Below, one piece after another: positions 34,430 through 50,099 of a stretch of DNA of 64,000 bases (the stretch's first letter is position 1; each line of letters starts with the position of its first letter). Source of the DNA: Methylotenera sp. (GTDB taxonomy: Bacteria; Pseudomonadota; Gammaproteobacteria; Burkholderiales; Methylophilaceae); assembly GCF_029945705.1 (NCBI RefSeq), contig NZ_JAQSDC010000043.1, positions 1-64,000 on the forward strand, written 5' to 3'. The translations under genes and the position numbers were made by a program. The notes under the pieces are model-generated. The model was not told where the DNA came from, did no database searches, and worked only from the letters and a program-made list of their open reading frames with translations.

Positions 34430-35449
34430 ATGATGAAAAAATTACTTCTACTCACTGTAATTAGCGTACATGTTTCTATTGCTCAAGCCCAACCTAATAT
34501 AGGCGAGATTTTGGCGCTGAGCGACTCTTTGGTACAGGTGGCGGTAGAACTGCCAAGTGGCATTACCGGCACTGGCTCGGGTGTTGTCGTGAGTAAGGAG
34601 TATGTCGCAACCAATTGCCATGTGTTAGCTAATGCAAAAGGCGCAAGCATTACTAAATATCATGATTCCTATCAACCGATTGGTTTGAAAGCTGATTGGA
34701 AGCATGATTTATGTTTACTCAAGTTTGATAACTTGCCATTTAAGGTCGCGCCCATGCGTGATAGCAGCACAGTAAAGTATGAGGAAGAAATATTCAGCCT
34801 AGGCTACCCCATCGGTAATAACGTGCCACAGCCTTCATATGGCAGCATTAAAGGCTCCTATCCGTTTGAAGATAGCGTAGTGATTCGAACCAGTGCGGCT
34901 TTTGCCATGGGCTCAAGTGGAGGAGCTTTGTTTGACCAACAGTTTAACCTTATTGGCATTACCAGCTTCAAAAGCCCGGGTTCTCATGGTTTCTTCTACA
35001 ACCTGCCTGTAGAGTGGATTAAAGCGTTATTTGACTCGCCAGATGTATTGTCATTGAGTACGCATGATGTACCATTTTGGGCTCTGCCATTAGAGCAAAG
35101 ACCTTATTTTATGCAGGTGGTCATTCCTTATCAAAATAAAGAGTGGATGGCTTTAAAGAAAATTGCGCAGGCTTGGACGGTGCAAGAGCCTAAATCATCT
35201 GATGCCTGGTATTTTTTAGGATTAGCGGAAGAGGGCGCCAATCAAACAGTATCAGCCAAAGAAGATTTGAATAAAGCACAAGCTTTAAACAATCGTCATC
35301 TAGATGCAATGTTGGCTTTGTCTGAAATTGCCTACTTACAAAAAGATTTAACAGCACTAGAAACACTCAAAGTTAAAATTGATCCACTTGATCAAGAACA
35401 AGGTGAGTTGATTACACAAAAAATCACTGAGTTAAAACTTACTCAATAA
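34430..35449 (+). CDS. Secreted trypsin-like serine protease with C-terminal TPR-like region
   Basis: A 339-residue protein with a signal peptide (1-20, ending AQA) and a trypsin-like (S1) fold resembling the protease domain of DegP. The triad is visible: His64 in NCHVLAN, Asp93 in WKHDLCLLKF and Ser163 in MGSSGGALFD. No PDZ domain follows; instead residues about 230-335 look like helical TPR-type repeats (AWYFLGLAEEGANQTVSAKEDLNKAQAL). It may process or check exported proteins; the substrate is unknown. It lies between a small membrane protein and the glycosylation island. Confidence 0.85.
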   Translation: MMKKLLLLTVISVHVSIAQAQPNIGEILALSDSLVQVAVELPSGITGTGSGVVVSKEYVATNCHVLANAKGASITKYHDSYQPIGLKADWKHDLCLLKFDNLPFKVAPMRDSSTVKYEEEIFSLGYPIGNNVPQPSYGSIKGSYPFEDSVVIRTSAAFAMGSSGGALFDQQFNLIGITSFKSPGSHGFFYNLPVEWIKALFDSPDVLSLSTHDVPFWALPLEQRPYFMQVVIPYQNKEWMALKKIAQAWTVQEPKSSDAWYFLGLAEEGANQTVSAKEDLNKAQALNNRHLDAMLALSEIAYLQKDLTALETLKVKIDPLDQEQGELITQKITELKLTQ

Positions 35450-35695
35450 TTAAAAAACTTTCGCCTCACCAGTTTTGCAGCTTCATTAATGCGTTTTAAA
35501 TTGCTAAGCTGAATCTAAGTTATTTTTACCCTTCTATTTCAAGCATCTATTACATATTATGTTTTCGATAATATGTACATTGGGCATTGCAAATTTTAAA
35601 TCATATTTTCTTAAATTTAAGTTCTGCATAACCTTACTAATTGCAAAGTGAGTTAAAAATTCACTGTTGCATTATGCATGATTAAAAGGCGCGTA

Positions 35696-38600
35696 ATGAT
35701 TACCTCTGAAGGCGATATTAAATCAAATCAAAACACCAATAATAAAGCTGGTGCTCAATCTAATAGTCGCTTAGAGAACGAACCTATAAAGGCTAGAGCC
35801 AATGAGACCCCGACAACCTCTGAGTTAAATGCCTTGGCTGTAATGTTTAACAATGGGCAATTAGTTGAGAGTGAGCAGTCTGCAGTTAATTTAACTCAAC
35901 GATATCCAAAAAGTGGTTTCGGTTGGAAGGTTTTAGGCGCGGTGCTTCAGAAGAAGGGTATGTTTAAAGAGGCATCAAGCGCGCTTCATAATGCAGCCTC
36001 GTTACTACCTAAAGATAGTGAGGCTCAGTATAACTTAGGTAATTTTTTTTACGATCAGCAACAGTTTGATGACGCGCTTAAATATTATAAAAATGCGATT
36101 AAGTTATCCCCCGACTTCGCTAAAGCTCATTACAACCTAGGTAATGTATTTAAAAGTCAGAATCATTTAGAGCAGGCTTCGGTGAGTTATAAAAATGCCT
36201 TACGCATTGAGCCTAGTAATATACAAGCTGCATGTAATCTTGCTCAGGTATTTTATGAGCAAGAAAATTTAAATGACTCAATTTCTTATTTTAAACAAGC
36301 TTTAAGCATTGATGAAGACTTTTCTGTGGCACATGTTGGTTTAGGAGCTTGCTTTCAGGCAATTGGACAACTAACGGAAGCTGAAGAGTGCTTTAGAAAA
36401 GCTATTAATCTGAGCGCCAACGATGTTGAAGCTCAAAGTAATTTGGGTGGGGTTTTAAAAGAATTGGGGAGATTAGCAGAAGCTGAAAGTTGTTACAGAG
36501 CTGTACTATCAATTACACCAGAAAATGTAGATATATATATTAAGTTAGCATCATTATTAAAGAGCATAGGCAACAGTGCTGAATCAGCAGATTGTTTTGC
36601 AAAAGCCTTGAGCATAAACTCTTTATTGGAGGATGCTCAAAATGATCTAGGACTAGCCCTTGCAGACCAAGGACGATTCTTTGAGGCGGAAATATGTTAT
36701 CAAAATGCAATTAAAATTGCGCCTAACTTTTGGAAAGCACATAATAATTTAGGACTAACGCTACATAGTTTGGCTCGTTTTAAAGAGGCAGAGGCTGCTT
36801 TTGAAAAAGCGGTTGAATTAAATCCTAACGAAGCACTAATCTACAGCAATCTTAGCTTGCCACTTGTCGCGCAAGGACAAATTAAGAAGGCTGAAGTCTA
36901 TCTAAAGAAAGCGATAGAAATTAACCCCACCTATGTTAATGCATACATTAATCTTGGTACTAACTATTTAGGACAGGGCTTTGCTCAGGAGGCTGAGTTT
37001 GCCTTCTTAGAGGCTCTAAGATTTGATCAAAACTCAACTAAGGCTAGAAGCAATTTATTATTCACTTTGAACTATTCTGGTGGGCATACTGCCGAATATC
37101 GTCTGCAGCAAGCTCGCCAATACGGTAAAACTGTTGATGAAAAAGTTAACTTTGTATTCACGTCATGGCTTCAAGTATCTGATGTAAGGCGATTGAGAAT
37201 AGGTCTAGTATCAGGTGACTTACGTCAGCATCCAGTGGCTTATTTTTTAGAAAACTGGGCTAAATATATCGACTCTTCTCGGTTCGAATTAATTGCATAT
37301 ACGACAGACAGTCGTGAAGATGAAGTAACCACAAGACTAAAACCTCACTTCTCCGGTTGGAGGTCGCTAGTTGGCTTGAATGATGTAGCAGCTGCAGAGC
37401 TCATTCATAGTAACGCAATTCATATTTTGATAGACTTGTCAGGACATACAGCAGAGAACAGGCTGCCTGTATTTTCTTATAGACCTGCACCGATACAAGT
37501 AAGTTGGTTGGGATATTTTGCAACCACAGGAATAACTTCTTTAGATTACTTTATTGCCGATGAAGTAGGTGTTCCAGAAGAGAGTAAAAAGCATTTTGTT
37601 GAAAAAATTAAGTATGTAGCAAATACTAGACTTTGCTTTACACCTCCTAGTTCATTAATTGATATTTCTCCATTGCCTGCACTTACTAACGGCTATATTA
37701 CATTTGCGAGTTTTCAAACACTCGTCAAAGCCAGTGGCGATGTGCTCGCTTTATGGGCAGGCGTGATGCAAGCGGTGCCAAACTCTAAATTACGCTGGCA
37801 ATGCAAATCTTTTGCAGATTCAGCGGTGGTTAAAGATTTAAAAGTTCGTTTTGCCAACTATGGGATTAACTCTGATCGTTTGATTTTACTGGAATCAGTC
37901 TCACGTGATGCATATTTTAAAGCACATGCGGAGGTTGACATGATACTTGATACCTTTCCATACCCTGGAGGAACTACTACTTGTGAAGCGTTGTGGATGG
38001 GTGTTCCTACCTTAACGCTTGCTGGAGATACACTCATTGCAAGACAGGGTGCGAGTCTAATGGCTTCAGCTGGGTTAAATGAGTGGGTCGCAGACAATAA
38101 AACAGACTATGTGAGTAAAGCGTTGTCTTTTGTTTCCGATATTACTAAACTGAGCAAGCTGAGAATGCAGCTTAGAGAACAAGTGCTCGCTTCCCCATTA
38201 TTTGATGCACCACTTTTTGCAAAAAATATGGAAATATTATTGTTGGAAATGTGGAATGAGAAATTTCCTATCTGCGTAAAACAAAATTCTAAGCAAGATG
38301 AAACTGATTTAACTTCAAGTGGTGATGCTGATGTGAATTTTACTAATCTTTTGAATACTGATTTGGTCATTGTAAGTAGCACAAAATATACGGAAAGTGA
38401 GTTTTGGACTAAGTCTCCTTTAGGTCTATCTTTGCCTAGACATCGTAAACAAGATTCAAGATTTACAATAAGTATTACTTTTGAGAGTTCATGTGGTTTG
38501 TCCGAAGTATTCAATGCATCTATCGATCAAGCCAAAGAGGATGCCGTCCTTATCTTTATTCACGATAATGTTTGGATTGATGATGCTAATTTTGCGGATA

Positions 38601-40783
38601 AGATTTTAGAGGGTTTAACCCAATATGATGTGATAGGCGTTGCAGGTAATCGCCGTCGAGTACCTAACCAACCTTCTTGGGCATTGTTAGATGAACGATT
38701 TATTTGGGATGATAGCGCCAATTTAAGCGGACGTATTGCACATGGCGAAAACGCATTTGGGGAGGTTGAATTTTTTGGCGATGTTCCAGCGGAATGTGAA
38801 TTGCTTGATGGCGTTTTTCTTGCTACTAAAAAATCCACACTAAAGCTAAATGCGCTTAGATTTGATAATCAGTTTACTAATGACTTTTATGATATGGATT
38901 TCTGCCGTAGTGTAAGGGCCGCTGGCCTGAGGCTTGGTACATGGCAGATTAACCTTACACAACAGAAAGCAGTGTCGATTGGAAATGCGTATTGGCGAGA
39001 AAAATATAAGGACTACCTTAACAAATGGGAAATGCCCTCAGAAGTGATAAATACCTCTGAAGTAGTTAGTAGTGATTCCCATGGTCAAACTTTACAAAAT
39101 GCAATAAATGATGTTTTTCAAATGGCTGTAGATCATCAGAGTGCTGGAAATACACAACAGGCAGAGCAACTTTATCAAGAAATTCTCAACATACAACCTC
39201 AGCATGCGGCCGCCAATCACAATTTAGGAATAATAGAAGCTTCTTCGAAGGGAGCTGTGTTAGCTCTACCTCGTTTAGAGCTTGCGGTGCAGTCTCAACC
39301 AGAAAGTGAGCAATTTTGGGTGAGCTATATAGATGCGTTGATGCAGACTGGTGCGATTGAAACTGCAACAGATGCCTTAGAGCTAGGACAAAAGTTTGGT
39401 CTGCGACCTAAAACATCACAATACATCGCAGCTGAATTTGTTAAAGAGTTTGATCGGCAAGCTCAACGGCAAGAAGAGTTAAGGGTGTCGGCTCTGGACG
39501 CATTGCAATTAGAGTTCCAACCAAGAGATAAATCCTTATTTAAGATAAAACCAGAGCTAAAAACAGGAAAGTCAGTTTTTTATATCTGGTCTCCAAATTA
39601 CACAACAACCTCTTCTGGTATTAAGGCCTTACATTTGTTATGTGACCGTTTAAATGCTATGGGATATGAGGCATATATTACAGCAGTCGAGGTTAACCCA
39701 ACATTTGTTACTCCAACAGTAACAAAAAAACTGATAGAAATCCATAAACAACAAGGGCGGCTTCAGATTGCTTTCTATCCAGAAACCCAAATGGGGAATC
39801 CTCTTTTAGTACCAAATGTTGTACGTTACTTATTAAATACTCCTAATTTCTTTGCTAAAACCTCATGGTTTGGTAGCTTTCACAAAGATGAGTTATTACT
39901 TCATTATGCAGATGCAGTTGCTATTCCATGGATTAAATCAGATTCTCTTCGCATTCAAACTATTGATAGAAACATATTTAAGCCCTTATCTAACAAACAA
40001 AACGCGGATCGCTCTGGCTTTTTAGTGTATTCACATAGAGTACAACCAGACTTAGATCAGATACCTTCTTGGTGCAAGCCATATCAAGTGATATCAATGG
40101 AGGATCCAAAGTCTCCAGTGCAGTTAGCTGAACTCTATCAAAAAGCAAAAGGCTTAATTGTATATGAAAGGACAATGGCGGTAATTGAAGCAATGTTATG
40201 TGGTTGTCCAGTGATGACTTGTTCGCAATTTGGACTGAGTAAGTCGGTTGCTTGGTATGAAGGGTATGACGAAGTATTAAAAGCTTGGGATTTTGATCAA
40301 GATACATTTACTCAAGTGACTAAAGATATGGAGGCTGTTGGTGAGATTTACGAGTATAACCAACGTTTTGATGATCAAATGATTAATATGACTTTTAATA
40401 GGTTAATTTCACATTTTCAACTGGATTCAACTGATGATATAGAAATTACTCCATTATATGGAATAGAACTCGCAAAAGATCACCTCCAAAAAGGCCAGAT
40501 TAAGGAAGCCGTCATGAATTACAAACAGGTAATTATTGATGATCCAACATGCGTAGAAGCTTACTTCAGGCTTGGAAGTACATTAATGAATGTTAGGTTA
40601 TTTGCACATGCATTAGGAGTACTAAAGCAGGGAGAAAGTTATTTAATGAAACTACCTGATCATAAGTTTCTAGATTCAATCAGGTTGGCCTATTACAGCA
40701 TGATGGGTGAAGCGTGCGTGGAACTCAATGAACTTGATGTGGCACGTAATTATTTTGATTTAGCTGCTAAAACACATGATTAG
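35696..40783 (+). CDS. Giant TPR protein with GT41 (SPINDLY-like), GT-A-like and GT-B-like glycosyltransferase regions
   Basis: About 1,695 residues from the ATG at 35696 (AAAGG 6 nt upstream; the ORF track starts six codons earlier). Region order by codon estimate from 35678: about 11 TPRs (50-470); a GT41/O-GlcNAc-transferase-type catalytic domain (500-865) with VSGDLRQHPVAYF carrying the catalytic-type His, SYRPAPIQVSWLGYFATTG, and LDTFPYPGGTTTCEALWMG; a GT-A-like domain (890-1117) with LIFIHDNVWIDD, resembling the GT2-related Glyco_tranf_2_5 group; a TPR module (1141-1254); a GT-B/GT4-like region (1295-1575) with ERTMAVIEAMLCGCPVM; and a C-terminal TPR pair. GT41 enzymes glycosylate Ser/Thr of proteins in the cytoplasm. 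Position upstream of fliC suggests flagellin as substrate. The GT41 and TPR calls are firm; the other two are fold-level. Confidence 0.85.
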   Translation: MITSEGDIKSNQNTNNKAGAQSNSRLENEPIKARANETPTTSELNALAVMFNNGQLVESEQSAVNLTQRYPKSGFGWKVLGAVLQKKGMFKEASSALHNAASLLPKDSEAQYNLGNFFYDQQQFDDALKYYKNAIKLSPDFAKAHYNLGNVFKSQNHLEQASVSYKNALRIEPSNIQAACNLAQVFYEQENLNDSISYFKQALSIDEDFSVAHVGLGACFQAIGQLTEAEECFRKAINLSANDVEAQSNLGGVLKELGRLAEAESCYRAVLSITPENVDIYIKLASLLKSIGNSAESADCFAKALSINSLLEDAQNDLGLALADQGRFFEAEICYQNAIKIAPNFWKAHNNLGLTLHSLARFKEAEAAFEKAVELNPNEALIYSNLSLPLVAQGQIKKAEVYLKKAIEINPTYVNAYINLGTNYLGQGFAQEAEFAFLEALRFDQNSTKARSNLLFTLNYSGGHTAEYRLQQARQYGKTVDEKVNFVFTSWLQVSDVRRLRIGLVSGDLRQHPVAYFLENWAKYIDSSRFELIAYTTDSREDEVTTRLKPHFSGWRSLVGLNDVAAAELIHSNAIHILIDLSGHTAENRLPVFSYRPAPIQVSWLGYFATTGITSLDYFIADEVGVPEESKKHFVEKIKYVANTRLCFTPPSSLIDISPLPALTNGYITFASFQTLVKASGDVLALWAGVMQAVPNSKLRWQCKSFADSAVVKDLKVRFANYGINSDRLILLESVSRDAYFKAHAEVDMILDTFPYPGGTTTCEALWMGVPTLTLAGDTLIARQGASLMASAGLNEWVADNKTDYVSKALSFVSDITKLSKLRMQLREQVLASPLFDAPLFAKNMEILLLEMWNEKFPICVKQNSKQDETDLTSSGDADVNFTNLLNTDLVIVSSTKYTESEFWTKSPLGLSLPRHRKQDSRFTISITFESSCGLSEVFNASIDQAKEDAVLIFIHDNVWIDDANFADKILEGLTQYDVIGVAGNRRRVPNQPSWALLDERFIWDDSANLSGRIAHGENAFGEVEFFGDVPAECELLDGVFLATKKSTLKLNALRFDNQFTNDFYDMDFCRSVRAAGLRLGTWQINLTQQKAVSIGNAYWREKYKDYLNKWEMPSEVINTSEVVSSDSHGQTLQNAINDVFQMAVDHQSAGNTQQAEQLYQEILNIQPQHAAANHNLGIIEASSKGAVLALPRLELAVQSQPESEQFWVSYIDALMQTGAIETATDALELGQKFGLRPKTSQYIAAEFVKEFDRQAQRQEELRVSALDALQLEFQPRDKSLFKIKPELKTGKSVFYIWSPNYTTTSSGIKALHLLCDRLNAMGYEAYITAVEVNPTFVTPTVTKKLIEIHKQQGRLQIAFYPETQMGNPLLVPNVVRYLLNTPNFFAKTSWFGSFHKDELLLHYADAVAIPWIKSDSLRIQTIDRNIFKPLSNKQNADRSGFLVYSHRVQPDLDQIPSWCKPYQVISMEDPKSPVQLAELYQKAKGLIVYERTMAVIEAMLCGCPVMTCSQFGLSKSVAWYEGYDEVLKAWDFDQDTFTQVTKDMEAVGEIYEYNQRFDDQMINMTFNRLISHFQLDSTDDIEITPLYGIELAKDHLQKGQIKEAVMNYKQVIIDDPTCVEAYFRLGSTLMNVRLFAHALGVLKQGESYLMKLPDHKFLDSIRLAYYSMMGEACVELNELDVARNYFDLAAKTHD

Positions 40784-40793
40784 AGTTTGATAA

Positions 40794-41519
40794 ATGAATT
40801 ACGGAATCTCAAATATTGACCGACAAAGATTTGGCATAATGACTGCAAAAGCTTCATTAAAAGGTGGCGATAGTGTGCTCGAGTTAATGAAAAAATCAAA
40901 GCGTGATCAGATTAAGTTACTTATTGTTCGAGTACCAACTAGTCAGCTTGATATAACAACACAATTGGAAGCTGAAGGTGCCTTTATTGTTGATACATTA
41001 GTATATTACGCAAAGAGTAAAGCTGACTGGTACTCCGATCAGTTGATTGATGGCTACATTGTTAGATTAGCGAAATTTGAAGATGCAAATAGGTTGGAAG
41101 ATATTGCATATGAAACATTTAAGGATTACAAAGGACATTACCATGCTGACGATAACTTGAAGAAAACAGATTGTAATCAAGTCTACTCATCATGGGCAGC
41201 TAACTCATGCAAAGAGCAGGACGTTGCAGATGCAGTTCTGTTGATAGAAAAAGATGATGAAATTGCAGCATTTGCAACGATTAAAGTTAAACATAAAAAT
41301 GAAATTGAGGGTGTGCTTTATGGAGTATCTCCAGTTCATCGGCACCAAGGTTTACATTTACATTTGATGAAGGCAAGTCAAAACTGGGCTATAACAAATG
41401 GGTACTCTCGTATGATTACTTCAACTCAAATAACAAATATAGCAGTCCAAAAAAATTGGATTAGGCTTGGTTTTGAGCTTGAAAGTAGCTTTTATACATT
41501 TCACAAATGGTTTGATTGA
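40794..41519 (+). CDS. GNAT acetyltransferase, WecD-like (nucleotide-sugar N-acetyltransferase)
   Basis: A 241-residue protein whose C-terminal ~150 residues form a GNAT fold with the acetyl-CoA segment VLYGVSPVHRHQGLHLHLMKA. The N-terminal part is like that of WecD/RffC, which N-acetylates dTDP-4-amino-4,6-dideoxygalactose in enterobacterial common antigen synthesis. The WecE-like aminotransferase immediately downstream would supply exactly that substrate, and the two reading frames almost touch. It lies 10 bp after the giant glycosyltransferase gene. The GNAT call is firm; the sugar substrate is inferred from the pairing. Confidence 0.8.
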   Translation: MNYGISNIDRQRFGIMTAKASLKGGDSVLELMKKSKRDQIKLLIVRVPTSQLDITTQLEAEGAFIVDTLVYYAKSKADWYSDQLIDGYIVRLAKFEDANRLEDIAYETFKDYKGHYHADDNLKKTDCNQVYSSWAANSCKEQDVADAVLLIEKDDEIAAFATIKVKHKNEIEGVLYGVSPVHRHQGLHLHLMKASQNWAITNGYSRMITSTQITNIAVQKNWIRLGFELESSFYTFHKWFD

Positions 41520-41524
41520 ACAAG

Positions 41525-42670
41525 ATGATAGAAAATAAGATTCCATTTAATAAGCCCTATTTACATGGTCGTGAGCTCGTTTATATTGCACAATCTGTAG
41601 CATCAGGAAAAATATCGGGTGATGGTATGTTTACTAATAGATGTCATGAGTTCTTTGAAAGTAAATATAATTTTAAAAAAACACTTTTAACTACATCCTG
41701 TACTGACGCACTTGAAATGGCTGCAATATTGTTGAGTATTAGTGAGGGAGATGAAGTTATTTTGCCATCATTTACTTTTGTCTCTACGGCAAATGCTTTC
41801 ACTTTAAGAGGAGCTAAGTTGGTATTTGCTGATAGCTGCGACAACAGCCCCAATATAGATCCTTTGCAAATTGAGGCTTTAATTACGCCAAGAACAAAAG
41901 CAATTGTAGTGGTGCATTATGCTGGAGTAGCATGCAATATGGGCCATATCATGGCGATAGCTGAATCTGCCGGCATACCTGTCATAGAGGATGCGGCACA
42001 GGCAATTGATTCATATTATAAAGATAAGCCTCTGGGATCAATAGGTTGTCTAGGTGCCTTTTCGTTTCATGAAACTAAAAATATTATATCTGGTGAAGGT
42101 GGGCTGCTTACCATTAACGATTTAAGTTTAATAAAACGTGCGGAAATAATTCGCGAAAAAGGTACTAATCGATCTTCTTTCTTTCGTGGAGAAGTCGATA
42201 AATATGGTTGGGTTGATATAGGCTCATCCTTTTTACCATCAGACATTATTGCAGCATATTTATTCGCGCAGCTGGAAAATATTGATGCAATTCAGGCTAG
42301 GCGTAAAGCAATATGGAAAACTTACTATGACTCACTTATATATGTTGCAGAAAAATCTGGACGTTTTATGTTGCCGACCATACCTGATTTCGCGACCAAT
42401 AATGCACATATGTTTTATCTTATATGCGATAGCATTGAGACTAGAACTGGTTTAATTGACTATATGAAGACTCTTGGAATACATTCTGTTTTTCATTACT
42501 TGTCACTACATAAAAGTGACTTTTATGCAGATAGACATGATGGTCGGGAGTTAAGAAATAGTGATCATTACTCAGACTGTATTTTAAGAATTCCTATGTT
42601 CTTTGAGTTGAGTGATCGTGAAGTTACGAGAGTAATTTATTCAATACTTGATTTTTTTAATTTACATTGA
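41525..42670 (+). CDS. wecE: dTDP-4-amino-4,6-dideoxygalactose transaminase (WecE/RffA-like)
   Basis: A PLP-dependent DegT/DnrJ/EryC1 aminotransferase, about 381 residues from the ATG at 41525 (the track's TTG at 41516 overlaps the previous stop). The PLP Lys is K188 (track numbering) in FSFHETKNIISGEGG. Long runs match the E. coli WecE sequence as I remember it, e.g. PSFTFVSTANAFTLRGAK, VVHYAGVAC and EIIREKGTNRSSFFRG, well beyond generic DegT resemblance. The reaction converts dTDP-4-keto-6-deoxyglucose to dTDP-4-amino-4,6-dideoxygalactose (Fuc4N). The required RmlA/RmlB are not in this window. The neighbours suggest the sugar goes to flagellin rather than to common antigen. Confidence 0.9.
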   Translation: MIENKIPFNKPYLHGRELVYIAQSVASGKISGDGMFTNRCHEFFESKYNFKKTLLTTSCTDALEMAAILLSISEGDEVILPSFTFVSTANAFTLRGAKLVFADSCDNSPNIDPLQIEALITPRTKAIVVVHYAGVACNMGHIMAIAESAGIPVIEDAAQAIDSYYKDKPLGSIGCLGAFSFHETKNIISGEGGLLTINDLSLIKRAEIIREKGTNRSSFFRGEVDKYGWVDIGSSFLPSDIIAAYLFAQLENIDAIQARRKAIWKTYYDSLIYVAEKSGRFMLPTIPDFATNNAHMFYLICDSIETRTGLIDYMKTLGIHSVFHYLSLHKSDFYADRHDGRELRNSDHYSDCILRIPMFFELSDREVTRVIYSILDFFNLH

Positions 42671-42769: not shown

Positions 42770-43804
42770 ATGGTAAATCTAATGAAAACTTTTTTACATG
42801 TTGGTTGTGGCCCTCGTTATTTTGATTCACATTCTAAGCAACAAGTTCGACCCCTAGGTTTTAGTATAGAAGAATGGGATGAGTTGCGATTAGATATCAA
42901 CCCTGGCGTCAATCCAGATGTAGTTGGTACCATGACTGATATGTCTGCAGTTGCTTCAGAAAGTGTTGACGCAATTTTCTCATCACATAATATTGAGCAT
43001 CTCTATCCTCACGAGGTTCCAATTGCTCTGGCCGAGTTTAAACGAGTGTTACGTAGTGATGGTTTTGTTGTTATCACTTGCCCAGATTTACAGTCTGTAT
43101 GTGCATTAGTCGCGGAAGGTAAACTAACTGAGCCAGCTTATATTTCACCAGCAGGGCCGATAGCCCCAATCGATATACTGTATGGGCACAGGCCGCCAAT
43201 GAGTCAAGGTAATCTTTATATGTCACATCGTTGCGGTTTTACGCTTAATGTCTTGTTGGCGACTTTAGAAGATGCTGGTTTTTTAAAGACTGTGGGGCTA
43301 TGCAGACCTAATTACTTCGATTTATGGGCACTAGCTAGCGTTGCTTGTTTAGAAGAGCAACAGGCTCTCGGTCTGGCCAGAAATCACTTTCCCGAGAGTG
43401 CTAATAATATCGCTAATCATGATCGAGTTCAAAGTGATCTGCATTTAGCAATTACAGATGTATTGCTTATTGCACTAGAGAACCAACAAGAAGGACGATT
43501 AGATCAAGCGAAGCAACTTTACCTTGAAATTCTTGAATTAGAACCTAGACATGCTGAGGCTAACTTTCACTTAGGCGTAATAGCGTATAGTCAGTCGGGA
43601 GCAGCATCCTCAATACCGTGGTTTGAGGCCGCTTTGGATATTAATCCAGAAAACGAGCAATACTGGGTATGTTATATCGATGTATTGGCCCAGTCTGGAC
43701 TTACTGATTCTATTTCGGAAGCATTAGAGCTAGGTCAGAAATATGGTTTAACTAAAGAAAAGGCGCTGATGATTGCTAAAGAGTTAAATTTACCTACTGT
43801 CTAG
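42770..43804 (+). CDS. SAM-dependent methyltransferase fused to a TPR module
   Basis: A 344-residue protein. Residues 1-215 are a class I methyltransferase of the Methyltransf_11 type: the SAM loop LHVGCGPRYF, acidic LRLDINPGVNPDVVG, and FKRVLRSDGFVVITCPDLQSV. Residues about 235-340 are a TPR module (AKQLYLEILELEPRHAEANFHLG then NEQYWVCYIDVLAQSG) that aligns without gaps to modules in the two GT41 proteins. A methyltransferase inside a glycosylation island most plausibly methylates the glycan or the carrier protein. Alternative start: ATG at 42782. No strong ribosome site is visible before either. Confidence 0.85.
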   Translation: MVNLMKTFLHVGCGPRYFDSHSKQQVRPLGFSIEEWDELRLDINPGVNPDVVGTMTDMSAVASESVDAIFSSHNIEHLYPHEVPIALAEFKRVLRSDGFVVITCPDLQSVCALVAEGKLTEPAYISPAGPIAPIDILYGHRPPMSQGNLYMSHRCGFTLNVLLATLEDAGFLKTVGLCRPNYFDLWALASVACLEEQQALGLARNHFPESANNIANHDRVQSDLHLAITDVLLIALENQQEGRLDQAKQLYLEILELEPRHAEANFHLGVIAYSQSGAASSIPWFEAALDINPENEQYWVCYIDVLAQSGLTDSISEALELGQKYGLTKEKALMIAKELNLPTV

Positions 43805-43856: not shown

Positions 43857-45935
43857 ATGGCTTCTCGAAATAAAATGAAAGTTGATACTCATCTTCTACA
43901 GGCTAAATTGTTATTTGAGGCAAGTCTAATCAATGAGGCTGAGAAACTTTATCTTGAAGTCTTAACTAAATATCCCAATCAGCCAAATGCTAACTTTAAT
44001 CTGGGCTTGATAACACTTAAAGATCAACGCATTGAACGTAGTTTGATCTACTTCAAAACAGCCCTAGAGGCTGACCCAGAGCAACGGCAATATTGGATTA
44101 GTTATATAGATGCGCTAATTCAAGCAAAACTTTATGAAGACGCTGATATTGTATTATCTTATGGTCTTAAAGCGGGATTAAATGGTCACGAAGTAGTGTC
44201 GTTAATGGCGCGCTGTCGACATGATGATAAAACTAGTTCTGTGCACATAAATATGCCTGCATCATATGTAGAAGATGAATTAATCAGCTTGTTTTCTGAG
44301 GCTCGTTATGAGGAAGTTGAGCATAAGTTATTGACATTGATGCAAGACTATCCAGACTGGCTGGTCGGATGGAAAATTCTTAGTGATACGCTATTGGTGC
44401 AGCAAAAAGATGCGAGAATTCCAGCAAAGCGGGCTTTAGAACTCAATCCTAATGATGCCAAAGAACATTGCTATTACGGTTTAATATTAAAAAAAGAAGG
44501 TGATTTGAAAGGTGCATTAAGCGCTTTCGAGCAAGCTGTCATTTTGAAACCAGATTATGCTGCTGCTTACAATAACTTAGGCATAGTGTGTAAGGATATG
44601 GGGAATGTTGAAGAGGGGATTCGATATTACAGGCAAGCACTTCAGATAAATCCACGATATGCAAGTTGTTATAGTAATTTGTTGTTTTGTCTTTCTCATT
44701 CTGAAAATATTGAAGTTAACGCTTTATTTAAAGAGCACCTTTTATTTGCAGAGCAGTATGAATTGCCATTAAAGGCTAAGTGGCCTAAACACCGCAATGT
44801 GCCTGATGGTCAGCGTTGTCTCAAAATAGGTTTTGTTTCTGCTGATTTCCGAGATCATTCACTGGTTTATTTTTTCGAGCCAATTTTGAAATATTTGGCT
44901 TCATCTTTAAAGCTATCTTTGTACGCCTATTCAGCAAGTGTTATTGAAGACCAGGTAACTGCGCGCTTACGAGCAGAGTTTAGATTTTGGAATAAAGTGG
45001 ATGCACTTAGTGATGAAGCGTTTGCAAAACGGATTATTGATGATGAGGTTGATATTCTGGTAGATTTAGATGGGCACACCTCGGGCAATAGACTTTTAAC
45101 TTTCGCATTAAAGCCTGCGCCTATTCAAGTTAGCTGGCTCGGATACCTTGCCACTACTGGTTTGGCAGCTATGGACTATTATTTTGCAGATGGTTATTTA
45201 TTGCCATCAGGTAAATACGATAGTCAGTTCACTGAAAAATTAGTGCAATTACCAGCAAATGCACCTTTTATGCCTCATGCGCTTGCACCAGAGGTAAATC
45301 GCCTGCCTGCACTTACAAATGGATATATTACCTTTGGTTGCTTTAGTCGACCTAGTAAAATAACTCGAAATGTAGTGAAACTGTGGTGTTCTCTACTCAA
45401 AGCTATACCAAAGAGTAAGCTATTGTTGGGCGCGATGTCTTTGGATGGTAGCTATGAAATTCTTGTTAATTGGTTTTCTCAAGAAGGAATCACAGGAAGC
45501 AGACTAATTTTTCAGCCAAGAAGTGATATGGCTACTTATTTGAGACTGCATTACGAGGTGGATATATGCTTGGATACCTTTCCCTCTAATGGAGTGACTA
45601 CAACCTGTCATGCGGCTTGGATGGGTCTGCCAACCTTATGTTTGGAGGGAGATAGTTTAACTAGTCGTGGCGCTCAAGGTGTAATGAAGCATTTAAGTTT
45701 AGGTGATTTTGTAGCGAAGGATGAGGCTAGTTATGTTGTGAGAGGCCAATCCTGTGTCAACAATATAAACCAACTAGATCTATTGCGACAATCATTAAGA
45801 GATCGTTTTAGGCAGTCACTATTAGCAAGACCAGATGTCATTGCAAATGGTTTGGAACTGGCATTTCAACAAATGTGGAAAAGATGGTGTCTGAAATTGC
45901 CAGCAGAAGCAATTGAAATCAGTATTTCAGAATAA
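43857..45935 (+). CDS. TPR-GT41 protein glycosyltransferase (SPINDLY/OGT-like)
   Basis: A 692-residue protein. Residues 8-115 are the shared island TPR module (QRQYWISYIDALIQA); 145-290 hold further TPRs (AYNNLGIVCKDMGNVEEG); about 320-676 are a GT41 catalytic domain with VSADFRDHSLVYFFEP (His of the catalytic region), LKPAPIQVSWLGYLATTGL, the Lys in FGCFSRPSKIT and LDTFPSNGVTTTCHAAWMG. It should transfer one sugar from a nucleotide donor to Ser/Thr of a cytoplasmic protein. It is the last gene before fliC, on the same strand, and its donor may come from the WecE/WecD-like pair. The GT41 part differs substantially from that of the giant protein, so acceptor or donor may differ. Confidence 0.9.
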   Translation: MASRNKMKVDTHLLQAKLLFEASLINEAEKLYLEVLTKYPNQPNANFNLGLITLKDQRIERSLIYFKTALEADPEQRQYWISYIDALIQAKLYEDADIVLSYGLKAGLNGHEVVSLMARCRHDDKTSSVHINMPASYVEDELISLFSEARYEEVEHKLLTLMQDYPDWLVGWKILSDTLLVQQKDARIPAKRALELNPNDAKEHCYYGLILKKEGDLKGALSAFEQAVILKPDYAAAYNNLGIVCKDMGNVEEGIRYYRQALQINPRYASCYSNLLFCLSHSENIEVNALFKEHLLFAEQYELPLKAKWPKHRNVPDGQRCLKIGFVSADFRDHSLVYFFEPILKYLASSLKLSLYAYSASVIEDQVTARLRAEFRFWNKVDALSDEAFAKRIIDDEVDILVDLDGHTSGNRLLTFALKPAPIQVSWLGYLATTGLAAMDYYFADGYLLPSGKYDSQFTEKLVQLPANAPFMPHALAPEVNRLPALTNGYITFGCFSRPSKITRNVVKLWCSLLKAIPKSKLLLGAMSLDGSYEILVNWFSQEGITGSRLIFQPRSDMATYLRLHYEVDICLDTFPSNGVTTTCHAAWMGLPTLCLEGDSLTSRGAQGVMKHLSLGDFVAKDEASYVVRGQSCVNNINQLDLLRQSLRDRFRQSLLARPDVIANGLELAFQQMWKRWCLKLPAEAIEISISE

Positions 45936-46379: not shown

Positions 46380-47177
46380 ATGGCTTCAATAATTAACACA
46401 AACCTTAACTCATTAAACACACAACGTAACTTAAGTGCTTCACAAGGCTCATTAGCTACAGCAATGCAACGCTTGTCATCAGGTATGCGCATTAACAGCT
46501 CTAAAGATGATGCTGCTGGTTTGGCTATTGCAACTAAAATGGACTCACAAATTCGTGGTCAACAAGTTGCAATTCGTAACTCAAATGATGCAATCTCTTT
46601 TGCACAAACAGCTGAAGGCGGCTTAGCAAAACAAACTGACGCATTACAACGTATGCGTGAATTAGCAGTTCAATCTCTAAACGGTACTAATACTAGTACT
46701 GACCAAGCTAACTTAGATGCAGAGTATCAACAATTGTCTGCTGAGCTAACTCGTATCACTTCTGCAACTAAATTTAATGGTTCAGCAGTATTTGGTGCAT
46801 CACAATCATTCCAAGTTGGTGCTGATGCTGGTGACACTATTACTACAGCGTCTGTTGCTGGTGCTACGGTTGCTGGGGCTGTTTCAAGCACAGCATCAGC
46901 ATCTACTGCAGTTACGGCGATTGATGCCGCGCTAGCTACAGCAAATACCAACCGAGCTACATTAGGTGCCATTCAAAACCGTTTTGAATCAGTTGTTAGC
47001 AACTTACAAGTTTCTACTGAAAACCAATCTGCTGCTAAATCACGCATCATGGATACAGACTTCGCCGCAGAAACAGCAAACTTAAGTCGCGCTAATATCT
47101 TGCAACAAGCTGGCACAGCCATGTTAGCTCAAGCCAACTCATCACCAAACGGCGTGTTAGCTTTATTAAGAGGCTAA
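46380..47177 (+). CDS. fliC: Flagellin
   Basis: A 265-residue flagellin with conserved D0/D1 ends: N-terminal INTNLNSLNTQRNLSASQGSLATAMQRLSSG and C-terminal AAETANLSRANILQQAGTAMLAQANSSPNGVLALL. The variable centre is very short, so the D2/D3 domains are absent. Residues 151-181 are low-complexity and rich in Ser/Thr (12 of 31; e.g. SVAGATVAGAVSSTASAST), a natural target for O-glycosylation by the adjacent GT41 enzymes. It is exported by the flagellar type III apparatus with FliS as chaperone. AGGAGA precedes the ATG, and two sigma-28-like promoters lie upstream. Confidence 0.97.
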   Translation: MASIINTNLNSLNTQRNLSASQGSLATAMQRLSSGMRINSSKDDAAGLAIATKMDSQIRGQQVAIRNSNDAISFAQTAEGGLAKQTDALQRMRELAVQSLNGTNTSTDQANLDAEYQQLSAELTRITSATKFNGSAVFGASQSFQVGADAGDTITTASVAGATVAGAVSSTASASTAVTAIDAALATANTNRATLGAIQNRFESVVSNLQVSTENQSAAKSRIMDTDFAAETANLSRANILQQAGTAMLAQANSSPNGVLALLRG

Positions 47178-47207: not shown

Positions 47208-47232
47208 CCCACAGGCCTGATCAGCTTGTGGG
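47208..47232 (+). terminator. Stem-loop between fliC and flaG
   Basis: Stem CCCACAGGC/GCTTGTGGG (one G-U) with loop CTGATCA, starting 31 nt after fliC. No U-run follows, so it is more likely an RNA-stabilising or partly attenuating structure that keeps fliC mRNA in excess over flaG than a full terminator. Confidence 0.6.
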
Positions 47233-47252
47233 GTTTCGCAAAGGAGAAAGTT

Positions 47253-47636
47253 ATGTTTAATTCATCGATAGATAGTTATGGTTCAGTTAGAAGACTGGCC
47301 GCTGTGCCTAGTGCCAGCGGCCAAATTGCCATTGATAAAACAACAAGCCCATCAGGGCTTAAACCCGTTGTGGCTGCTGAAAATACCAAAAGCGTTGCTC
47401 AACCTGTTGTTGATAAGGCAGACTTAGAAACTGCAGTTAAGAAATTGAATGATTTAGTAGCGCCTGCGTTACAAACCGTTCAATTTTCACTAGATGCACA
47501 GTCAGACCGTATGGTGGTAAAAGTGGTGGATACAGCTTCTAAACAAGTGTTAAGGCAGATTCCAAATGAAGAGGTGTTGGCAATGTCTAAAACGCTAGAT
47601 AAGTTGCAGGGTTTAATGAGCAGGCAAACGGCTTAA
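47253..47636 (+). CDS. flaG: FlaG-family flagellar protein
   Basis: A 127-residue protein from the ATG at 47253, which has AAGGAG 6 nt upstream; the track's start at 47226 lies inside the preceding stem-loop. The C-terminal ~70 residues are the FlaG domain (LQFSLDAQSDRMVVKVVD-like, then VLRQIPNEEVLAMSKTLD). FlaG proteins affect flagellar filament length in some species. The N-terminal half is polar and variable. Confidence 0.9.
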   Translation: MFNSSIDSYGSVRRLAAVPSASGQIAIDKTTSPSGLKPVVAAENTKSVAQPVVDKADLETAVKKLNDLVAPALQTVQFSLDAQSDRMVVKVVDTASKQVLRQIPNEEVLAMSKTLDKLQGLMSRQTA

Positions 47637-47678
47637 TCGCTGTAATTTTAATGGCTTGATGATTAGTCTGTTTGAATT

Positions 47679-47740
47679 TGCAGGGGCGACAAGGTGTCAC
47701 GATTTGTTAAGTTATTTCGTGATTTCTCGTTGTTCCTGCA
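47679..47740 (+). other. Long imperfect RNA hairpin between flaG and fliD
   Basis: Two 24-nt arms (47679-47702, beginning TGCAGGGGCGACAAGG, and 47717-47740, ending TTGTTCCTGCA) pair at 22 of 24 positions around a 14-nt loop. Five pairs are G-U if the plus strand is the RNA; on the minus strand they would be A-C mismatches. This strand bias suggests a plus-strand RNA structure. It has no U-run. Confidence 0.6.
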
Positions 47741-47828
47741 TTTGTATTTAGATTTAGGGTATTAAAGTAGATTTGATTAAAGTTTTTGAGAAATGATGTC
47801 GTTATATACTTAAATAGCAGTTAATTAG

Positions 47829-47880
47829 GCCTCTTTTAGTGATTAGACTTTTTAGTAAAGTCAACGTAGTTTAAAGAGGC
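47829..47880 (+). promoter_or_regulatory. Nested stem-loops in the fliD leader
   Basis: An outer stem GCCTCTTT/AAAGAGGC (47829-47836/47873-47880) encloses an inner stem GACTTT/AAAGTC (47846-47851/47857-47862) with loop TTAGT. It ends 24 nt before the fliD ATG, just ahead of the AAGGA ribosome site, so it could affect translation or mRNA stability. Confidence 0.5.
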
Positions 47881-47904
47881 TGTTGTTAAAAAAGGATATA
47901 CAAA

Positions 47905-49584
47905 ATGAGCATTTCATCTCCAGGAATAGGTTCCGGACTTGATGTAAATAGTATCGTAACCAGTTTAATGGCTATCGAACAAAAACCACTGACGGCGGTC
48001 ACTCAACAAAAGACAGATTATCAGTCGCAAATTTCGGCCTATGGCACTTTGAAAAGTAGTCTTTCAACATTCCAGACAGCAGTTAGTGCGCTTTCTAGTG
48101 CTTCTAAATTTAATGCGCAAACGGTTAGCTCAAGCAATGCTACGGTGTTTACTGCAACAGCTAATGGTACTGCTTCGTTAGGTGACAGTGTTATCACAGT
48201 AAATCAATTAGCTAAATCACAGAAGTTAACTTTTGCAGGTACTGCAAATGTAGCCGATACCGTCGGCACAGGTAACTTGACCATTTCATTTGGTACCTAT
48301 AATCCAGCCACTGCAGTTGCGCCGATTACGCCAAATTCATTTACGCCTAATACGGCTAAAACCGATGTAAGCATTACTATTGATAGTTCTAATAACACGC
48401 TTACGGGCGTGCGTGATGCAATTAATGCTTCAAACTCAAGTGTTAGTGCAACTATCGTGAATGATGGCAATATCAATCACCTAGTCATCACCTCAAAAGA
48501 TACGGGTGAAGTGAATACCTTAAAAATCACCACTACAGATAGTGATGGTAACAATACCGATAATTTAGGTTTATCACAGTTGGCATATGACCCAACCGCT
48601 GCAGTTGGTAGTGGTCAAAATATGTCGCAAATGCAGGCTGCAAAGAATGCAATGTTAAATATAGATGGTATTGATGTTGTTAAGTCTAGCAATACTATTA
48701 CGGATGCGATTAGTGGTGTAACACTGAATTTACTAGCTACCAGTGCAGATAATGTTAATTTAAGTGTGGCAAGTAATAAAGATGCAGTAAAGGCCTCGGT
48801 AACGGCGTTTGTTGATGCTTATAATAAGTTAGATACATCGCTACGTAGTCTAACAAATTATGATCCTACAGGAAAAAAATCTGGTGCTCTGTTGGGCGAT
48901 GCTACGACTCGGTCGGTGATTACTAAGCTTAAGTCTGTGATGACCAATGCGATAACTTCTAATGGTGCATTTTCCTCACTTAGCCAAATTGGCGTGTCAT
49001 TTCAGGCAACTGGTCAATTGGCTTTAAATTCAACCAAGCTTGACTCAGCAGTCGCTTCTAATTTCAGTGATATTGCTAGTTTGTTTGCAACATCAGCAAA
49101 AGCAACTGATCCGCAGATTAGTTATTCCTCAAGTTCCATTAAAACAAAAGCAGGGACTTATGCTGTTAATGTGAGCAGTCTATCTCCTCTAGAAGGTACG
49201 ATTAATGGGGTTGCAGCAACAGCTATTGGTGGAAGTTTAGTGGGCGCAACAGGTGATGCAAGTGAGGGACTAATTATGAAAATTAATGGTGGTACCACAG
49301 GCTCACGTGGCACTGTTAATTTTAGTATTGGCTACGCGGCACAGTTAGATAGTGTAATTACTAATCTGTTAGATACTACAGGTATCCTAGCCTCTAGAAC
49401 AGATGGAATTAATAGCTCCATTTCTCGCCTTGATAAACAGGCTGATTCACTTACATTAAGACTAACAGCCATTGAAGCTCGTTATCGTACGCAATTTACT
49501 AAGCTAGACACATTGATGTCTAGTATGAGTACGACTAGCTCATTTATTACTCAACAAGTTGCTGCATACAATGCGAATAAGTAA
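47905..49584 (+). CDS. fliD: Flagellar filament cap protein (hook-associated protein 2)
   Basis: A 559-residue protein, longer than the ~470 of enteric FliD, with conserved ends: N-terminal SISSPGIGSGLDVNSIVTSLMAIEQKPLTAV and a C-terminal coiled-coil (ISRLDKQADSLTLRLTAIEARYRTQFTKLDTLMSSM). The middle is Thr/Ser/Asn-rich, as usual for surface-exposed cap domains, and could also be modified. It forms the cap that folds incoming flagellin. It is followed by fliS and fliT, its usual partners. Confidence 0.96.
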   Translation: MSISSPGIGSGLDVNSIVTSLMAIEQKPLTAVTQQKTDYQSQISAYGTLKSSLSTFQTAVSALSSASKFNAQTVSSSNATVFTATANGTASLGDSVITVNQLAKSQKLTFAGTANVADTVGTGNLTISFGTYNPATAVAPITPNSFTPNTAKTDVSITIDSSNNTLTGVRDAINASNSSVSATIVNDGNINHLVITSKDTGEVNTLKITTTDSDGNNTDNLGLSQLAYDPTAAVGSGQNMSQMQAAKNAMLNIDGIDVVKSSNTITDAISGVTLNLLATSADNVNLSVASNKDAVKASVTAFVDAYNKLDTSLRSLTNYDPTGKKSGALLGDATTRSVITKLKSVMTNAITSNGAFSSLSQIGVSFQATGQLALNSTKLDSAVASNFSDIASLFATSAKATDPQISYSSSSIKTKAGTYAVNVSSLSPLEGTINGVAATAIGGSLVGATGDASEGLIMKINGGTTGSRGTVNFSIGYAAQLDSVITNLLDTTGILASRTDGINSSISRLDKQADSLTLRLTAIEARYRTQFTKLDTLMSSMSTTSSFITQQVAAYNANK

Positions 49585-49616
49585 TTACTAATAACTAAGT
49601 ATAAGTAAAGGACACG

Positions 49617-50099
49617 ATGATGTTTGGATCAAATCAACATGGAGTAAATGTATATGCCAAAATTGGCTTGGAAACAGGCGTGCTTGCTGCTAGCCCAAAC
49701 AAATTAATTATTATGCTTTACGATGGTGCCATCACTGCCAGTCACAGTGCAATTATACATATGCAAAATAAAGATATATCTAACAAGGGCGCTATGATTT
49801 CAAAAGCGATTTCTATCATAGAGTCTGGTTTAAGACTTAGTTTAGATAAAAAAGCTGGTGGTGAGATTGCTGTAAGCTTAGATGCACTTTACGCATATAT
49901 GAGTAAGCGATTAATGACGGCGAATATTCAAAACAAGCCAGAGTTAATACATGAAGTCATTAAATTGTTGACTGATTTAAAAGGTGCGTGGGAAGCCATT
50001 GATCAGTTAAAAACGCCAACTACAGAGATGCCAATGGCAACTTCTAGCCAAGTCGCGATGACGGTTAATCGTAATATTGCTAATTACGCAAAAGCCTAA
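49617..50099 (+). CDS. fliS: Flagellin export chaperone FliS
   Basis: A 160-residue helical protein with the FliS core: NVYAKIGLETGVLAASPNKLIIMLYDGAI near residues 8-37 and ALYAYMSKRLMTANIQNKPE. It binds the C-terminal disordered part of flagellin to stop premature polymerisation. The polar tail (PTTEMPMATSSQVAMTVNRN) makes it longer than enteric FliS. 32 bp after fliD. Confidence 0.95.
   Translation: MMFGSNQHGVNVYAKIGLETGVLAASPNKLIIMLYDGAITASHSAIIHMQNKDISNKGAMISKAISIIESGLRLSLDKKAGGEIAVSLDALYAYMSKRLMTANIQNKPELIHEVIKLLTDLKGAWEAIDQLKTPTTEMPMATSSQVAMTVNRNIANYAKA

Follow-up and report, generated by a model that had tools for sequence, protein, structure and literature searches.

The outer sugars of flagellin glycans are commonly held to be important for recognition by phages and immune systems, and an amino sugar of the Fuc4N type is known from the enterobacterial common antigen. 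Variable flagellin islands with GT41 enzymes, distally placed modified viosamine and flagellin transferases of the TPR type are already known. In Pseudomonas syringae, a viosamine island comprising VioA, VioB, VioM and VioT is responsible for modified viosamine in the distal position of the flagellin glycan (PMC3927599). FlmG from Caulobacter crescentus is a cytoplasmic TPR-type flagellin glycosyltransferase that needs pseudaminic acid and NeuB (PMC7591256), while variable flagellin islands with GT41 enzymes bearing a SPINDLY domain are described for Enterobacteriaceae (PMC4875605). A survey of monosaccharide pathways places Fuc4NAc only in Gammaproteobacteria (PMC7725333). Searching the open-licence literature for flagellin together with Fuc4NAc yielded nothing but a review of the common antigen, and no related work was found for flagellin glycosylation combined with Methylophil-. 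We know of no earlier case of Fuc4NAc on flagellin.

The locus studied here lies in a stretch of 64,000 nucleotides from Methylotenera sp. (Methylophilaceae), referred to as the window. Its genes follow the order GT41a, WecD-WecE, methyltransferase, GT41b, fliC, flaG, fliD and fliS:

35678..40783, + strand, GT41a, 1701 aa (PF13844, PF13712, TPR models; PDB; domain map across relatives; Foldseek)
39353..40477, + strand, C-terminal domain of GT41a, which varies between relatives; candidate transferase for the cassette sugar (homologue distribution, PF00534, AlphaFold, Foldseek)
40794..41519, + strand, divergent WecD-like GNAT, proposed dTDP-Fuc4N N-acyltransferase (PF00583, 35.6 bits; NF008212; locus context of relatives)
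41516..42670, + strand, WecE, dTDP-4-keto-6-deoxyglucose 4-aminotransferase of the predicted Fuc4N type (NF008687, TIGR02379, identity to E. coli WecE, tree)
42770..43804, + strand, methyltransferase with TPR tail, kept whatever the cassette (PF08241)
43857..45935, + strand, GT41b, second TPR-GT41 protein, 692 aa (PF13844, 153 bits; top PDB match SPINDLY)
46380..47177, + strand, flagellin FliC, proposed acceptor (PF00669, PF00700)
47226..50099, + strand, FlaG, FliD and FliS, flagellar genes anchoring the position of the island (open reading frames; relatives with the same order)

Both reading frames of the WecD/WecE-like pair are thus present, and the pair sits in a flagellin glycosylation island, that is, glycosyltransferase and sugar genes linked to fliC. 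The setting among protein glycosyltransferases put forward in the original prediction is thereby substantiated, with two TPR-GT41 proteins and with flagellin as the proposed glycan acceptor. GT41a consists of a TPR region (residues ~40-480), a SPY-like GT41 domain (481-870), a GT2-like domain (886-1135), further TPRs (1139-1225), a C-terminal GT-B-like domain (~1226-1600) and a TPR tail. Upstream of GT41a lies a gene for a trypsin-like protease (34430-35449).

Sequence comparison identifies the protein encoded at 41516-42670 as a true WecE-type and not a VioA-type aminotransferase. Its reading frame (384 aa) begins with TTG, an alternative ATG being located at 41525, and overlaps the GNAT frame by the four bases TTGA. 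The likeness to WecE noted in the original prediction was confirmed by both curated models, NF008687 (545.9 bits, cut-off 375) and TIGR02379 (507.1 bits, cut-off 434.9), with much weaker scores for the competing models ArnB (219.5 bits), PseC (193.8 bits) and DesI (112.9 bits). E. coli WecE (4piw) is the top PDB match (E 1.4e-122). The identity of 54% to E. coli WecE over 379 aa, compared with 29% to VioA of E. coli O7 over 273 aa, rules out a VioA identity; E. coli WecE itself is about equally distant from VioA. The SFHETKN motif is kept, and its Lys188 aligns with Lys181 of E. coli WecE, the lysine that binds PLP. In a tree of 99 sequences, the enzyme falls within the WecE sequences in a well supported proteobacterial group, and the VioA and FdtB types are placed outside all of these with a support of 100/100. 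A galacto configuration at C4 of the product would be expected from this assignment. Genes of the GT56 family (WecF/Fuc4NAc-transferase) adjoin wecE in 8 of the 80 nearest WecE loci, and the two of them that were checked exceed the gathering cut-off of PF07429; this neighbourhood supports Fuc4N as the likely product of the clade to which the window enzyme belongs.

The adjacent GNAT protein (241 aa) is, as judged from its sequence, a divergent relative of WecD rather than a curated WecD. It matches the WecD model NF008212 over nearly its full length, but with 63.4 bits it stays below the cut-off of 219, as it does for TIGR02382 (47.9 bits, cut-off 195.1), and it is 21% identical to E. coli WecD over 150 aa. 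The position of Tyr208, which acts as general acid in the E. coli enzyme, is occupied by Trp, while 31 of 35 aligned WecD-like sequences have Tyr. The same Tyr-to-Trp change occurs in a GNAT protein encoded next to wecE in Chitinophaga (L100:8814-9869). When 369 genomes of the class were searched, the two nearest relatives of the window GNAT (33% and 30% identity, full length) were found in loci with rmlA and with WecE proteins 64-66% identical to that of E. coli, one of these loci containing the gene set GNAT-rmlB-rmlA-wecE-wzxE-like. These wecE loci support the WecE product as the probable substrate of the GNAT protein despite the failed WecD cut-off.

Occurrence of such a pair outside a common-antigen locus, which the original prediction had singled out, is ordinary: of the 80 nearest WecE loci, some two dozen, mainly from Bacteroidota, have a WecD-like gene directly adjoining wecE, and this arrangement is found in many polysaccharide loci. 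The novel element is the flagellin-island setting and not the WecD-WecE pair itself. A Saprospiraceae locus (L069:9245-12384) has consecutive genes for GNAT, WecE and GT56, a gene set of the Fuc4NAc type outside Gammaproteobacteria. In three loci of Burkholderiales type (L033, L034 and L046), GT56-WecE is located within a few kilobases of a TPR-GT41 gene and flagellin genes; as their WecE proteins are placed apart from that of the window in the tree, WecE has come into flagellin loci at least twice.

The genome contains a complete rml set (rmlA, rmlB, rmlC and rmlD, the genes for dTDP-rhamnose), with rmlBDAC on contig C32 and second copies on C10 and C56; a search for rmlA and rmlB had been suggested from the outset. 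The statement that no wec polymerase or lipid-transfer gene is present can be extended from the window to the whole genome for the two genes searched, as neither WecF/GT56 nor WzyE gave a match in it, the E. coli controls being positive for both. A common-antigen pathway is thus ruled out. NeuB (PF03102) gave no match in the genome either, with a positive Caulobacter control, and this rules out a nonulosonic acid supply as in the FlmG-type system. The search for Maf (PF01973) was negative, but as its positive controls included no bacterium this result carries little weight. A separate polysaccharide locus with rml and ABC-transporter genes could be another user of dTDP-Fuc4N, and a third GT41 protein is encoded elsewhere in a non-flagellar context, where the adjacent genes point to a methylotrophic organism. 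The GC content of 0.34-0.37 at 40-43 kb, compared with 0.37-0.45 around it, differs too weakly to argue for a foreign origin of the cassette.

Corresponding stretches from related genomes were compared. Wherever the assembly covers the island, GT41a is again followed by cassette, methyltransferase, GT41b and fliC, apart from some exceptions, with GT41b found in most of these islands and some relatives devoid of GT41b or the methyltransferase. Most cassettes consist of FdtA and an FdtB-like aminotransferase, some contain DesI-like aminotransferases and others a phosphoenolpyruvate mutase (phosphonate) set; G012 (L214) has GT41a, methyltransferase and fliC without any cassette. In the sister genome G024 (L202), the slot that holds WecD-WecE in the window contains a VioA with 65% identity over 351 aa to that of E. 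coli O7, together with a VioB (58% over 183 aa). The phosphoenolpyruvate mutase gene directly follows GT41a in L205 (6240-7538), L206 (6614-7912) and L213 (4533-5846); the L205 protein reaches 412.8 bits (cut-off 319.6) and a gene for a TPP enzyme lies behind its gene, whereas in L206 and L213 the mutase gene is noted upstream of fliC. A phosphonate on the flagellin glycan is possible for these three loci. In G055 (L201:9231-12416), a single frame of 1061 aa encodes a fusion of GT41b with a VioA-like aminotransferase. The methyltransferase part is 81-86% identical among relatives with differing cassettes and probably acts on a constant part of the glycan; the flanking GT41a and GT41b are just ~55-76% identical among the same relatives.

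Changes of the sugar cassette appear to be accompanied by changes in the C-terminal domain of GT41a. The type present in the window (type W) was found in two further genomes only, G024 (L202, 55% identity, full length) and G055 (L201, 48%, full length), both with VioA-type enzymes. A different domain (type 2) is present in nine loci with FdtB-like enzymes, in eight of which FdtA was seen, the ninth being broken by a contig end, and GT41a of the cassette-free G012 has no such C-terminal domain. Both the domain and the cassette are hence exchanged between genomes, but the three type-W and nine type-2 loci include many close kin, so that the counts are no formal test of the association. PF00534 (GT4) matches all three type-W domains below threshold, and a PDB sequence search with the domain gave no match. 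An AlphaFold model of moderate confidence (pLDDT 71.6, pTM 0.62) retrieved exclusively GT-B glycosyltransferases at the top of the Foldseek list, several of them users of dTDP-sugars, albeit with low TM-scores of ~0.25-0.5.

The GT41 domains behave differently. Arabidopsis SPINDLY is the top PDB match of both, and 16 SPY active-site positions (PMC10027727, PMC9715652) were read from the alignment of relatives. In GT41a, Lys665, Gln689, Tyr728, Gly747, Thr748 and Glu752 (SPY numbering) are identical in 17 of 17 sequences, Tyr or Phe occupies position 744, and all but two sequences have Ala at 731. GT41b has constant Lys665, Tyr728, Leu731, Val747 and Thr748, and positions 689, 744 and 752 deviate only in two proteins outside an assembled fliC island (G012, G018). 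The SPY signature for GDP-fucose is Lys689/Ala731/Tyr744, with Lys689 reading the guanosine (PMC10027727); the corresponding residues are Gln/Ala/Tyr in GT41a and Gly/Leu/Ser in GT41b. Lys689 being absent from both, SPY-like use of GDP-fucose was rejected. Since the donor pockets are nearly constant whichever cassette is present, the GT41 domains probably add constant core sugars.

With moderate confidence, we favour reading the WecD-like/WecE pair as the sugar cassette of an island for O-glycosylation of flagellin in the cytoplasm, in which the C-terminal domain of GT41a adds the acylated Fuc4N distally. We infer enzymatic products, acyl group, acceptor, sugar order and the assignment of domains to sugars as follows. 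RmlA and RmlB, encoded elsewhere, would provide dTDP-4-keto-6-deoxyglucose, which WecE would aminate at C4 to dTDP-Fuc4N, and the GNAT protein would acylate the amine, probably with an acetyl group. The TPR arrays of GT41a would hold flagellin while the SPY-like GT41 domain puts a constant first sugar on Ser/Thr. This sugar might be a 6-deoxyhexose, given that GT41a keeps SPY Val497 and a Leu at 592 and that the genome has dTDP-rhamnose genes. The GT2 domain may attach a second sugar, and the C-terminal GT-B-like domain would attach the acylated Fuc4N distally, comparable to VioT and modified viosamine in P. syringae. A more general proposal, which we make tentatively and hold to be possible though slightly short of probable, is that flagellin glycosylation is modular in these organisms: a single TPR polypeptide would combine a fixed, initiating GT41 domain with a C-terminal GT-B domain that can be exchanged along with the aminosugar cassette belonging to it, such that lineages swap the outermost sugar (3-amino sugars, Qui4NAc or Fuc4NAc) as a unit, the window being of the Fuc4N type and its sister of the viosamine type.

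An alternative, in line with the original prediction of a GT41 enzyme that uses a 6-deoxyhexose, is that the GT41 domain of GT41a or GT41b transfers Fuc4NAc directly onto Ser/Thr of flagellin. Both domains are indeed SPY-like, SPY is a 6-deoxyhexose transferase, GT41a keeps Tyr744, Val497 and a hydrophobic residue at 592 of the fucose pocket (residue roles: PMC10027727), and the absence of Lys689 makes a pyrimidine nucleotide possible. The analogy with SPINDLY is sound with respect to the fold, but it fails at Lys689, and a nearly constant pocket argues against a role in handling a variable sugar, for which the domain should vary too; among the relatives, some cassettes are predicted to provide 3-amino sugars, others sugars of the viosamine type or phosphonates, and a cassette may also be missing. 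Direct transfer by a GT41 domain is therefore clearly unlikely in our estimate.

Less probable still, and indeed highly unlikely, is that the pair supplies lipopolysaccharide or capsule and resides beside fliC incidentally. Many close proteobacterial kin of the WecE protein are encoded in loci of O-antigen-like make-up that also contain rmlA/rmlB or wzxE-like genes, and the same genome has the rml/ABC-transporter polysaccharide locus mentioned above; on the other hand, the genome lacks a detectable GT56 enzyme, and the pair is flanked by GT41a and the conserved methyltransferase, a position that sister species fill with different aminosugar cassettes, in every case upstream of fliC. More weight, although we regard it as somewhat unlikely, is due to the idea that the setting is as proposed but the product is not N-acetyl-Fuc4N, either because the GNAT protein adds another acyl group or because enzymes of this WecE clade have come to make a different sugar. 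A GNAT protein without Tyr208 and much below the WecD cut-off would fit such a product, and P. syringae puts a hydroxybutyryl group on viosamine (PMC3927599). Against it stand the WecE scores well above the cut-offs, the GT56 genes adjoining those of its kin and the finding of no genes for acyl carriers next to the pair.

Should distal transfer by the C-terminal domain prove correct, the occurrence of Fuc4NAc-type sugars would no longer be confined to polysaccharides but would include a protein of the flagellum, apparently in a bacterium other than an enterobacterium, and a testable sequence rule would indicate which domain of a large TPR transferase is in charge of the variable outer flagellin sugar. 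Given the importance commonly attributed to outer sugars in recognition, the joint swap of sugar and transferase would be a simple route of diversification.

Compared with the P. syringae island, the locus shares the predicted synthesis of a dTDP-4-amino-4,6-dideoxyhexose, an acyltransferase, a methyltransferase and a long transferase, with a distal acylated aminosugar proposed here. The sugar in P. syringae has gluco configuration (VioA), whereas the window encodes WecE, with its 29% identity to VioA, and a GNAT protein; VioA and VioB are both present in the sister G024. Further differences are the location of the cassette within a GT41 island linked to fliC and the fusion of the proposed distal transferase to a TPR-GT41 protein. 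FlmG combines a flagellin-binding TPR part with an O-glycosyltransferase that acts in the cytoplasm, as is proposed for GT41a, but it needs NeuB, which was not found in this genome, and GT41a possesses two additional transferase-like domains. With wecD-wecE of the enterobacterial common antigen the window shares the WecE family and the order of GNAT and aminotransferase genes, but WecF and WzyE were not found in the genome and the proposed acceptor is flagellin. Arabidopsis SPINDLY, an O-fucosyltransferase, has the same TPR-GT41 architecture, the guanosine-reading Lys689 being replaced by Gln in GT41a and by Gly in GT41b. The islands of Enterobacteriaceae resemble that of the window in combining GT41 enzymes with variable aminotransferase, methyltransferase and acetyltransferase genes, while that report (PMC4875605) does not name WecE and its accessible portion contains no exchange of a C-terminal transferase domain together with its cassette.
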